From an uncultured Bacteroidota bacterium (GTDB lineage: Bacteria; Bacteroidota; Bacteroidia; Flavobacteriales; Flavobacteriaceae), in the NCBI GenBank assembly GCA_902516925.1, contig CABYAF010000008.1, positions 1-35,652 of the forward strand: DNA of 35,652 nucleotides, written 5' to 3'. The translations under genes and the position numbers were made by a program. Below are positions 9,517-12,971 of this stretch, piece after piece. Below the pieces are notes generated by a model. The model had not been told where the DNA came from and ran no database searches. It saw nothing but the letters and a program-made list of their open reading frames with translations. How positions within the stretch are numbered: position 1 is the first letter of the stretch; every line of letters begins with the position of its first letter.

Positions 9517-10143
9517 ATGAATGAAATAATTGATTTTTTATTTTCTCAGTATTCAACTTATTCAGATACATTTATATTTCTTGAAATTCTTGCAGTAGGG
9601 ATGAACATTATTAGTGTTTTATATGCAAAACAAAACAATATCCTTGTATACCCAACAGGCCTTATAGGAACAGGAATATTTGTATACATTCTTTTTAACT
9701 TCTCTCTTTTAGGAGATATGATAATCAATGGATACTTTTTTATTATGTCCATTTATGGATGGTATTATTGGTCAAGAAAAAAAGATGAAGTATTTATAAA
9801 TAATGTTTCTAGACTTGAAAAAAAGGAATATATACAATTGATCTTTTTAGCTTTAGGAAGTCTTTTGTTTATTTATTTTGTATACGTTCAGTTTGATAAA
9901 TGGAACAGCTGGACAGCATATGTTGATAATATAACCACTGCTATTTTCTTTGTGGCTATGTGGTTAATGGCTAAGAGGAAGATTGAAAGTTGGATATTCT
10001 GGATTATAGGAGATATAATAACAGTTCCACTTTATTTCTACAAAGGATTGACTATTTCTTCACTTCAGTATATTATTTTTACAGTGTTAGCAATTTTAGG
10101 CTACATATCATGGAAAAAGATCTTACTCAAAACAAATCATTAA
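9517..10143 (+). CDS. pnuT: PnuC-family vitamin transporter, probably thiamine (PnuT)
   Basis: A 208-residue integral membrane protein with about seven hydrophobic segments. Family hallmarks are the YGWYYW motif and the C-terminal block WSSWT-like, WIFWIIGDIITVPLYFYKGL and LQYIIFTVLAILGYISWKK. PnuC proteins are facilitators that take up nicotinamide riboside or related vitamins, with trapping by phosphorylation inside. Here a TPP riboswitch and a TonB receptor follow, which favours thiamine (PnuT) over nicotinamide riboside. That assignment comes from context, not residues. The kinase gene starts 34 bases before this gene ends, so coupling is tight. Confidence 0.75.
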   Translation: MNEIIDFLFSQYSTYSDTFIFLEILAVGMNIISVLYAKQNNILVYPTGLIGTGIFVYILFNFSLLGDMIINGYFFIMSIYGWYYWSRKKDEVFINNVSRLEKKEYIQLIFLALGSLLFIYFVYVQFDKWNSWTAYVDNITTAIFFVAMWLMAKRKIESWIFWIIGDIITVPLYFYKGLTISSLQYIIFTVLAILGYISWKKILLKTNH

Positions 10144-10679
10144 TTAAGAGGATTGTCATTTGTGGTCCTGAATCAACGGGTAAGTCAACATTGACCGTAA
10201 AACTTGCATCCTATTTTAAGACCAATTATGTCAATGAATATGCAAGAGATTATCTTCAAAGAAAATGGGATGATAAAAAAGAAGTGTGTAATAAAGAAGA
10301 TCTAATAAAGATAGCTAGAGGTCAAGTTGAAAGAGAAAACACTAATATCACTAATTCTAATAAATTAATATTCTGTGATACGAACATTTTAACAACTATT
10401 GCATGGTCAAAAACTCATTTTGATGGATTCTGTGATCCATGGCTTATTAGACAATCAAAATTATTAAAATACGACTTTTACCTTATTCTCAATACAGATA
10501 CTTCATGGATCAAAGATGATTTAAGAGATAGACCAAATGATCGTAAAAAAATGTTTTTTGCTCATAAAGAGGAACTTAAGCTTTGTCATGTAAACTTTGA
10601 TATAATTACCGGTCCAGATTTTGAAAAAAGATTTCAAAGAGCCATCTATTTAATCAAAAAAATAATTAACTTTGATTAA
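10110..10679 (+). CDS. NadR-like P-loop vitamin kinase
   Basis: A 189-residue P-loop NTPase. The Walker A motif GPESTGKST (19-27) and the following VNEYARDYL match the ribosylnicotinamide-kinase domain of NadR; the NMN adenylyltransferase and DNA-binding domains of NadR are absent. The start ATG at 10110 lies inside the end of the PnuC-type gene, giving a 34-base overlap; an upstream frame extension to 9990 is rejected because it would overlap more and add no conserved sequence. In most annotations this is a nicotinamide riboside kinase. Next to a PnuC protein and directly ahead of a TPP riboswitch it may phosphorylate thiamine and trap it. Its stop codon overlaps the riboswitch. Confidence 0.75.
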   Translation: MEKDLTQNKSLIKRIVICGPESTGKSTLTVKLASYFKTNYVNEYARDYLQRKWDDKKEVCNKEDLIKIARGQVERENTNITNSNKLIFCDTNILTTIAWSKTHFDGFCDPWLIRQSKLLKYDFYLILNTDTSWIKDDLRDRPNDRKKMFFAHKEELKLCHVNFDIITGPDFEKRFQRAIYLIKKIINFD

Positions 10680-10752
10680 AATTGGGGTGCTTAAGGTAAG
10701 CTGAGATTAGACCCATAGAACTTAGACAGGTAATACTGTGAAAGGAAATTTT
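10678..10752 (+). promoter_or_regulatory. TPP riboswitch (THI element) abutting the receptor start codon
   Basis: The conserved TPP aptamer landmarks are in order: GGGGTGC at 10684, CTGAGA at 10701, ACCC at 10711, the GAACTTAGACAGG block, TAATACTG and a final GAAAGGA. Pairings that can be drawn are P1 AAAATT/AATTTT (10678-10683 with 10747-10752), P2 GGGT/ACCC, a very short P3 GCTTA/TAAGC, and P5 ACAG/CTGT. The 3' strand of P1 ends at the base before the ATG at 10753 and the 5' strand begins within the kinase stop codon. There is no room for a separate expression platform or terminator, so TPP most likely blocks translation of the receptor directly. Confidence 0.93.
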
Positions 10753-12918
10753 ATGAAAAAATACATATTTTTTGTACTTATTAGTACAATAGTTTATTCC
10801 CAAGACATTCAAAAAGATCAAACATTAGATTCTCTAGCTAATATCTTTAGCCTTGAAGAAGTTACTGTAAACGCACTTAGAGCAAAGGATAATACTCCTG
10901 TGCCATTTGTTAATGTTACAAAGAAGGATTTAGAAAAAACAAATTTAGGTCAAGACATACCGGCACTATTAAAAAACCTTCCATCGGTGGTAACCACTTC
11001 TGACTCAGGTTCAGGTATTGGATACTCCTCAATCATGATTAGAGGCTCCGATCAAACTAGGGTTAACGTGACAATAAATGGTGTTCCTTATAATGATTCT
11101 GAATCAATGATGAGTTATTGGGTTAATCTACCCGATTTATCATCTTCAATTGAAAGTATTCAAGTCCAACGTGGTGTTGGAACCTCAACAAATGGTCCTG
11201 CTGCTTTTGGTGGAAGCATTAATATTTTAACAAATGCAGCATCTGAAAAACCTTCATTTGAAATTAATAATACATTAGGAAGCTTCAATACAGTTAAAAA
11301 TTCTGTTGGATTTTCAACAGGATTTATTAATGATAAATTTGAGTTGTCAGGAAGATTATCTAGAATTAAATCAGGTGGGTATATTGACCGATCTGGATCA
11401 AAATTACGTTCATATTTTTTACAAGGAATATATAAGGATGAAAATACTTTACTGAAGATATTAAACTTTGCAGGGCATGAAATTACTGATCAAGCTTGGT
11501 TTGGAATAGATTCATCTACTCTTGAGACAAATCGTAAGTATAATCCTGCAGGGGAATATTATGATAAAATGGGGAATACACTTTATTATAATAATCAAGA
11601 TGATAATTATAAACAGGATCACTATCAGCTTCATTGGAATCAATCGTATGAAAATGGATGGATATCAAATCTTGGCTTACACTACACCTATGGAAGAGGA
11701 TACTGGGAAAACTATAATTTAGGATATGATGATGGTATATCTGTTCCTGAAGATTATATAGATAGAAGGCAGTTAGAAAATGATTTCTATGGACTTCTTT
11801 TTAGTATAAATCAGAAGACAGATATTTATAACGCAATAATTGGAGGCTCATTTAATATATATGATGGTCAACATTATGGTGAGTATATGTGGAGCTCTAT
11901 GAGTAAAATATCCTCTAATTTTAAAGAAAAATTTTATGATGATATTGGAGATAAACGGGAATTTAATATATATGCAAAACTTGATTATTATGTATCTGAG
12001 AAATTATCAGTTTATGGTGATTTACAGTTTAGAAATATCAATTATAATGCAAGTATTACTCCTTACTCAGTAGTTTCTGGTTATGTTGAACAGGGATACG
12101 AGGAAATAGACAAAAACTTTGACTTTTTCAATCCTAAAATAGGGGTTTTTTATAATCAAAATGAAAGTAATAAGTATTACTTGTCATATGCAAGAGCTCA
12201 AAGAGAGCCAACTAGAGCTGACTATGCTAGCGGAAGTCCAAATCCTGAAAAATTAGATGATTTTGAACTTGGGTGGCAAGGTCAATTTAATAACTTCTCA
12301 TTGAATTTAAATGCTTTTTATATGCTTTACGATGATCAACTAGTATTAACTGGTGAAAGAGATATTAATGGATATGAAATTAGAACAAATATTGGTGAAT
12401 CATATAGATTGGGATTAGAGCTTGATGCTAAGATATTTATAGACTCCAATCTTAATATTGAATCAAACATATCTTTAAGTGAAAATAAAAATAAGAACCT
12501 ATTCTATAGTTTTGATGGAGGACTTCAAAGTTTTGGAGATACAGACTTGGCATATTCTCCAAGTTTTATAGCTAATAATATCATTAATTTTTCTCCAAGT
12601 GATAAAGTATTAATCTCATTAAGATCGAATTATGTCAGTGAACAATTTTTTGCTCAGACTAATAGACCAATTTCTAAGTTGGACTCTTACTTCATAAATG
12701 ATTTAAACTTTATTCATGAACTATCGCTACCAAATTATGCAGACGAGTTAAAATTAAAAGTATTAGTGAATAATATTTTTGATATTAAATACACTAGCTA
12801 TGGTGGCTATTACACATATGACTTGCCTGAGGGTCAGGGACTTAAGACTTATGAAGGCACATATTATTATCCACAATCAGGAATAAACATTCTAGTAGGA
12901 TTAGATATTAAGTTTTAA
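10753..12918 (+). CDS. TonB-dependent outer membrane receptor under TPP control, probable thiamine receptor
   Basis: A 721-residue receptor from ATG 10753. A signal peptide (MKKYIFFVLISTIVYSQ) is followed by a TonB-box-like EEVTVNA, a plug domain (IPALLKNLPSVV, IMIRGSDQTRVNVTINGVPYND, SIQVQRGVGTSTNGPAAFGGSINI) and a long beta-barrel with alternating aromatic strands ending in an aromatic-rich final strand and Phe. TonB-dependent receptors import scarce ligands across the outer membrane using TonB/ExbB/ExbD. The aptamer immediately upstream indicates the ligand is thiamine or its phosphates. A GTG at 10738 in the same frame lies inside the aptamer and is not needed. An intrinsic terminator follows 29 bases after the stop. 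Confidence 0.9.
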   Translation: MKKYIFFVLISTIVYSQDIQKDQTLDSLANIFSLEEVTVNALRAKDNTPVPFVNVTKKDLEKTNLGQDIPALLKNLPSVVTTSDSGSGIGYSSIMIRGSDQTRVNVTINGVPYNDSESMMSYWVNLPDLSSSIESIQVQRGVGTSTNGPAAFGGSINILTNAASEKPSFEINNTLGSFNTVKNSVGFSTGFINDKFELSGRLSRIKSGGYIDRSGSKLRSYFLQGIYKDENTLLKILNFAGHEITDQAWFGIDSSTLETNRKYNPAGEYYDKMGNTLYYNNQDDNYKQDHYQLHWNQSYENGWISNLGLHYTYGRGYWENYNLGYDDGISVPEDYIDRRQLENDFYGLLFSINQKTDIYNAIIGGSFNIYDGQHYGEYMWSSMSKISSNFKEKFYDDIGDKREFNIYAKLDYYVSEKLSVYGDLQFRNINYNASITPYSVVSGYVEQGYEEIDKNFDFFNPKIGVFYNQNESNKYYLSYARAQREPTRADYASGSPNPEKLDDFELGWQGQFNNFSLNLNAFYMLYDDQLVLTGERDINGYEIRTNIGESYRLGLELDAKIFIDSNLNIESNISLSENKNKNLFYSFDGGLQSFGDTDLAYSPSFIANNIINFSPSDKVLISLRSNYVSEQFFAQTNRPISKLDSYFINDLNFIHELSLPNYADELKLKVLVNNIFDIKYTSYGGYYTYDLPEGQGLKTYEGTYYYPQSGINILVGLDIKF

Positions 12919-12947: not shown

Positions 12948-12971
12948 ATCCCCATTTATTAGGGGATTTTT
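12948..12971 (+). terminator. Intrinsic terminator after the TonB receptor gene
   Basis: A stem of ATCCCC and GGGGAT closes an eight-base loop (ATTTATTA) and runs into TTTTT. It lies 29 bases after the receptor stop and only nine bases before the greA start, so it would end the thiamine operon. It is one of the few clear hairpin terminators in the window. Confidence 0.8.

Follow-up and report, generated by a model that had tools for sequence, protein, structure and literature searches.

We wondered how a TPP riboswitch might control a gene when its aptamer ends directly at the start codon and leaves no room for anything else. Bacteroidetes mostly lack the Shine-Dalgarno (SD) sequences that translational riboswitches usually hide, and the mode of action of their TPP riboswitches was termed uncertain in 2017 (PMC5613172, in part; sources marked in this way are cited from part of their text). 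Such an arrangement lies in the window, by which we mean the whole analyzed stretch of 35,652 nucleotides from an uncultured member of the Flavobacteriaceae. A preliminary description had proposed a minimal TPP riboswitch between a kinase gene and a receptor gene of this window.

A cmscan search of the whole window against Rfam identified one element only, the TPP aptamer. The match to RF00059 spans the complete model (1-105 of 105) and lies above the gathering score of 54.3 bits, showing that the proposed aptamer is real. In the same genome, which is 63% complete, no TPP match was found beyond that of the window. Seventeen of the 25 genus genomes had a TPP aptamer match, and these 17 are referred to as the genus loci. 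The features of the window are listed here.

9517-10143 (+), pnuT-like transporter gene of the PnuC/NMN_transporter family (PF04973, 174.8 bits; TIGR01528, 95.8 bits, above cut-off)
10110-10679 (+), NadR-like kinase gene, translated from the ATG at 10110 (PF13521 AAA_28, 122.1 bits, scanned as 10104-10679)
10667-10674 (+), TAACTTTG, predicted promoter -7 box (TAnnTTTG) in the last kinase codons, of a kind positionally enriched before aptamers
10673-10764 (+), TPP aptamer, full RF00059 match including model flanks (57.0 bits, E 8.8e-9)
10678-10682 (+), 5' strand of P1, AAAAU, starting within the kinase stop codon
10740-10746 (+), GAAAGGA, 3' side of P4 plus adjoining bases, a 7-nt complement of the 16S rRNA tail lying 6 nt before the ATG and kept in 16 of the 17 genus loci
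10748-10752 (+), 3' strand of P1, AUUUU, its last base directly before the ATG
10753-12918 (+), TonB-dependent receptor gene, predicted outer-membrane thiamine receptor (PF00593, 83.3 bits; PF07715, 60.8 bits)
10772-10789 (+), hairpin UUGUACU-UAUU-AGUACAA in receptor codons, +20 to +37, present in all 17 genus loci (counterparts L032-L047)
12948-12967 (+), terminator-like hairpin followed by T's, 3' of the receptor gene (two such sites in 3.1 kb, 0.8 expected)

The compact placement of the aptamer against the start codon, as originally described, was confirmed. The aptamer begins in the kinase stop codon (TAA, 10677-10679) and the last base of P1 directly precedes the receptor ATG (10753-10755), a P1-to-ATG distance of 0 nt. 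The coordinates given earlier were right to within one base, the 3' strand of P1 starting at 10748 and not at 10747; A10747 could pair with U10683, which would lengthen P1 to the 10747-10752 first proposed. P3 likewise has the five pairs (GCUUA/UAAGC) and the three-base loop (AGG) ascribed to it. The ATG at 10753 is a credible start because all 17 genus members begin there with MKK and a stretch that by eye resembles a signal peptide.

The neighboring genes fit a TPP riboswitch, with a TonB receptor downstream and a pnuT-like gene close by. The kinase gene overlaps the pnuT-like gene by 34 nt, and orthologs lie upstream of the aptamer in 17 of 17 (kinase) and 16 of 17 (pnuT-like) genus loci. 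Thiamine is the presumed substrate of the receptor, given the riboswitch and the neighboring genes, and context points to the same substrate for the pnuT-like transporter. The receptor of the genus was also found in the records Flavobacteriales bacterium MED-G121, Flavobacteriales bacterium MED-G122 and Cryomorphaceae bacterium MED-G11. Neither ThiC nor TPK_catalytic was detected in any of the 25 genus genomes, most of which are incomplete, so thiamine uptake is probably needed and the genus likely consists of thiamine auxotrophs. The NadR-like kinase beside the pnuT-like gene is a candidate for the absent thiamine-phosphorylating enzyme.

We then asked how far the compact arrangement extends. 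The distance from P1 to the ATG was 0-2 nt in all 17 genus loci. None of the eight genus genomes that had no aptamer match is a counter-example, because the receptor ortholog is cut at a contig end in seven and only a distant receptor matches in the eighth. In seven genus assemblies (L316-L322) the contig ends inside the receptor gene, which hides the leader from surveys. The relatives were sampled, not counted exhaustively: 82 receptor loci came from other Flavobacteriaceae genera (a start was found in 81, the script finding no ATG in L154) and 38 from other families of the order, the latter picked for their small genomes; all were among the matches listed. Loci that had no downstream receptor ortholog (88 of 157 in one set; L272 and L276 among 40 at the order level) were excluded from the receptor statistics, and 28 further top order-level matches (L220-L247) lay outside the analysis. 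Among the matches listed, the P1-to-ATG distance had a median of 80 nt for the 81 Flavobacteriaceae loci outside the genus; in the 38 order loci its median was 64 nt and its lowest value 17 nt. Only two of the other Flavobacteriaceae loci among the matches listed did not exceed 15 nt, and each of these has an upstream in-frame ATG. We rejected L146 and L208 (5 nt, one genus) as well as L114 (20 nt) as short cases, as each has upstream in-frame ATGs and the methionine of the signal peptide, judged by eye, lies later. The nearest other distances among the matches listed were 17 nt (L248) and 19 nt (L249), both in another family. L248 carries at its predicted transcript start an 8-nt stretch, GTTCATTT, complementary to AAATGAAC four bases before the ATG, perhaps a second compact design. 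As judged by sequence comparison, compactness is lineage-specific and confined to the genus among the loci compared.

What the relatives have in place of this compactness is a longer region between the aptamer and the receptor ATG, in which many Flavobacteriaceae (L091-L157, L190-L219) share a stretch like AGAATAATGACCCCTTTTATTCG. Its C-rich part complements the aptamer 5' strand, and the stretch looks like a conserved, family-wide expression platform. An antiaptamer-like duplex beat 95% of shuffles in 38 of 79 family loci and 22 of 38 order loci among the matches listed. We rejected an antiaptamer within the genus, where such pairing beat 95% of shuffles in only five of 17 loci even though a longer stretch (-6 to +60) was offered. 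The genus has lost the platform of its relatives. Nor was a terminator-like site found between the aptamer and the receptor ATG, where there is no room for one, so that the intrinsic terminator of the transcription attenuation class is absent here. The earlier statement that the aptamer has neither a separate platform nor a terminator before the receptor, P1 ending at the ATG, therefore stands.

A rival view is that the aptamer itself is decaying and regulation has been lost. The genus aptamers score moderately (42.1-59.2 bits), and P1, which forms five of five pairs in 14 of 17 loci, is reduced to four, three and four in L045, L046 and L047. In contrast, 14 of the 17 matches exceed the gathering score, and the aptamer core is near-invariant across 16 aligned genus sequences while the 5' strand of P1 varies (L044, identical to L043 in this stretch, was omitted from alignments A1 and A2). 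Moreover, all 30 other-genus genomes of one search score lower yet keep full platforms. We consider decay very improbable, despite the shortened P3 of one locus. That locus, L047 (genome G313), has P3 down to two G-C pairs round four U's, misses one G of GAAAGGA and gives the lowest score of 42.1 bits.

The preliminary description had also held that there is no space for a promoter and that the aptamer would control only the last gene of an operon. The first of these statements did not hold. The main -7 box of F. psychrophilum is TAnnTTTG at -12 to -5 (PMC9723704, in part), and TAACTTTG in the last kinase codons has this sigma-A Flavobacteria motif at the fixed distance. In receptor loci of other genera, TAnnTTTG starts 11-20 nt before P1 in 45 of 52 cases, where about 0.4 would be expected from the same loci 200-1200 nt upstream. 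In the larger sample, again among the matches listed, a box was found 5-30 nt ahead of P1 in 73 of the 82 family loci and 29 of the 38 order loci. Across the window's own genome, the 40 nt preceding ATGs are also enriched in the box (23 and 21 occurrences per 20 nt vs 4-9). Within the genus, the exact box occurs within 15 nt of P1 in 11 of 17 loci; in one of these, L035, it is displaced such that the start would fall at GGGG inside the aptamer, leaving ten loci with the box in its working place. The remaining six have TAATTTnn at the usual place. A -33 element was not visible in the window, and a TTG 22 nt before the -7 box was seen in nine of 45 loci of other genera. Conservation of the kinase protein is not a simple explanation of the box, as the kinase stop shifts relative to P1 within the genus, from 9 nt before it to 3 nt into it. 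Computed from the box position, the predicted transcription start is 10679, which would make the leader 74 nt long and equal to the aptamer alone.

These data suggest that the receptor gene probably heads its own transcript. On the basis of the -7 box, the 'last gene of an operon' of the earlier account thus gives way to a probable transcript of its own; read-through from pnuT and the kinase gene may also occur. The alternative is that the receptor gene has no promoter of its own and that the aptamer is an intercistronic switch in a pnuT-kinase-receptor mRNA, P1 alone hiding the bases before the ATG; ribosomes ending at the kinase stop within P1 could then disturb the aptamer and couple both genes. 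The tight packing, with the kinase stop overlapping P1, speaks for it, as do the kinase ortholog upstream in every genus locus, the placement of this gene no more than 120 nt from P1 in 18 of the 82 family loci and 26 of the 38 order loci (among the matches listed) and the inexact box in six of 17 genus loci. Against it stand the strong positional enrichment of the box, seen also where the kinase gene is not adjacent, a kinase stop that wanders while the box stays put in ten of 17 loci, and the incomplete P1 in three of 17. We regard the intercistronic switch as unlikely.

We consider it probable that the receptor gene is controlled by a direct-translation TPP riboswitch that needs no platform. 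Transcription would start at about 10679 from the -7 box in the kinase 3' end and yield a leader consisting of the aptamer only. When TPP is scarce, the 3' side of the aptamer (P4 strand, GAAAGGA and P1 strand) would open enough for the 30S to reach the ATG at 10753. The TPP-bound aptamer would hold about -17 to -1, overlapping the ribosome footprint and excluding the 30S. Plentiful TPP would lower receptor synthesis and turn thiamine uptake off. The distance of 0-2 nt in all 17 loci places the arrangement in the direct class by the published rule that the start codon lies within 15 nt of the aptamer end. In B. thetaiotaomicron, the RNA of the transporter operons was unchanged by thiamine (PMC5613172, in part), which fits post-transcriptional control. 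Several observations count against the proposed mechanism, namely the imperfect P1 of L045-L047, the inexact box in six of 17 loci, the missing -33 element and a predicted free fold of the window in which the start codon is paired.

It had been suggested that TPP stabilizes P1 and that P1 thereby hides the region before the ATG. Direct occlusion of the start region is indeed the simplest mechanism, so this part of the interpretation is supported; P1 alone, in contrast, is a weak lock, consisting of A-U and G-U pairs only. The ten distinct P1 strand pairs average 4.6 of five base pairs vs 3.6 with random 5' strands; none of 2000 random sets did as well, a count that, coming from related sequences, is not a probability. 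Its imperfection in three of 17 genus loci led us to reject P1 as the sole conserved lock. We also estimated what it costs to open the stretch from -15 to +12 when the RNA is free. The median was 4.8 kcal/mol in the 17 genus loci vs 5.9 kcal/mol in 218 ORFs of the window's own genome, indicating that the unliganded start is ordinary. In the window itself the cost was 9.2 kcal/mol, near the 90th percentile of these control ORFs, because the predicted free fold pairs CAUAGAA with UUUUAUG. Forcing the aptamer fold here leaves the start codon more open than the predicted free fold does, and folding alone therefore does not show a switch. The case for ribosome exclusion is geometric, since the folded aptamer covers the very region where the 30S must bind. 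We further dismissed the idea that CAU in the joint between P2 and P4 acts as an anti-start-codon specific to the genus: CCCAT occurs in 80 of 120 loci of other genera among the matches listed, and the pairing with UUUUAUG or UUAUG is disturbed in L041 (CCCACAGAAC) and in L045-L047 (CCCATTGAAC).

A further thought was that the platform had moved into the coding region, where the hairpin at +20 to +37, or a pairing of codons with the aptamer 5' strand, might switch, perhaps via pausing, decay or termination. The hairpin is matched by only 0-4.8% of synonymous shuffles per locus, its window is the most evenly structured of 54 along the receptor gene, L039 and L047 each change one pair on both sides, and TTIR pairing with codons was seen in five of 17 loci. 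These signs lose weight on comparison: 26 of 500 shuffles do as well in changing two pairs on both sides, and structure of -4.8 kcal/mol or lower occurs at the same place in 28 of 320 ORFs of the window's own genome and, among the matches listed, in 31 of 118 receptor ORFs from other genera. In addition, the hairpin has no terminator tail, and codon-aptamer pairing is not conserved. We think a coding-region platform very unlikely and retain direct occlusion by the aptamer.

Which signal brings the ribosome to this start codon? The lineage had been described as lacking SD leaders. This holds for the genome, in which SD-like tetramers precede 15 of 318 ORFs vs 15.1 in shuffles, that is, no SD enrichment was found. 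The same 318 ORFs show enrichment of A at -3 and -10/-11, comparable positions in F. johnsoniae being -3, -6, -12 and -13 (PMC6847099, in part), and GAAAGGA also provides A's at -12 to -10. In Flavobacteriales, the gene that usually carries an SD is rpsU (PMC9976891, in part). In the genus (L296-L315), unlike in most Flavobacteriales, rpsU has no SD, the anti-SD complement being at most 4 nt in 20 of 20 loci. The receptor gene stands apart in that GAAAGGA, within its aptamer, is a perfect 7-nt anti-SD complement and the longest among 364 sampled ORFs of the genome; six others reach 6 nt, and shuffles yield 0.7 ORFs with at least 7 nt.

GAAAGGA might thus be a working SD in an otherwise SD-less lineage, sequestered directly as TPP contends with the tail of the 16S rRNA for it. 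All eight genomes examined retain the anti-SD in that tail, GAAAGGA persists in nearly all genus loci, and among the matches listed none of 120 aptamers of other genera reaches a complement of 7 nt and two reach 6 nt. Bacteria that do use SD sequences employ the purine-rich 3' end of their TPP aptamers in this way (PMC2258182, in part). Conversely, aptamer conservation and common descent may account for the segment. Furthermore, bS21, which hides the anti-SD in Bacteroidia, is encoded in 20 of 25 genus genomes, rpsU itself shows no SD in the genus, and in F. johnsoniae a weak SD (AGGA) had virtually no effect, according to the part of the published work covered here. We judge SD sequestration distinctly unlikely. 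In its fullest form, the idea would be that the receptor gene regained SD-like initiation, with the purine strand of the aptamer as its SD and a leader of aptamer only, that TPP vies with the 16S tail for the same seven bases, perhaps mainly on bS21-short ribosomes, and that P1 and the coding hairpin bracket the start codon; we give this a slim chance. If the SD reading were true, the receptor gene would join rpsU as one of the rare genes of Flavobacteriales that depend on an SD.

By the distance of its start codon, the arrangement belongs to a known class. Direct translation attenuation, in which by definition the start codon lies no more than 15 nt from where the aptamer ends, occurs among TPP riboswitches and is commonest in Actinobacteria and Cyanobacteria (Barrick and Breaker 2007, PMC2258182, in part). 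The genus loci share with these riboswitches the aptamer class, the close ATG, a purine-rich aptamer 3' end near the ribosome site and the lack of any further platform; they differ in belonging to a Bacteroidota genus that makes no genome-wide use of SD sequences, in their distance of 0-2 nt and in a predicted leader that equals the aptamer (PMC2258182, in part). A 2025 survey found transcriptional activity in six of 57 TPP riboswitches, none of the six from Bacteroides (PMC12121620, in part). In the part of the journal literature covered, we found no description of the genus arrangement; a 2019 preprint on transcription or translation control by Bacteroides TPP riboswitches may bear on the point. 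A second comparison lies outside TPP riboswitches. The SAM-sensing motif of Pelagibacter goes by the name SAM-V. It is likewise found near start codons and differs in its ligand, its pseudoknot fold and its phylum (PMC2704228).

Closely related are the OMthi TPP riboswitches of Flavobacteriaceae and Bacteroides (PMC5613172, PMC7366714), which have the same aptamer and the same target gene; those of other Flavobacteriaceae also share the -7 box ahead of the aptamer. Unlike the genus loci, those relatives place the ATG at a median of 80 nt from P1, among the matches listed, and often carry the antiaptamer-like segment that the genus has lost. They thereby offer an ancestral comparison for aptamer-only translation switching, for which the genus is a natural minimal case: the aptamer stands against the start codon in all 17 readable loci, with no terminator, sequestering hairpin or extra leader. 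New are the lineage, the distance of 0-2 nt, the predicted leader that is the aptamer itself and the loss of the platform relative to platform-bearing relatives. In these small-genome ocean bacteria, a mode of action known elsewhere would be at work where the usual ribosome-binding signal is not in use.
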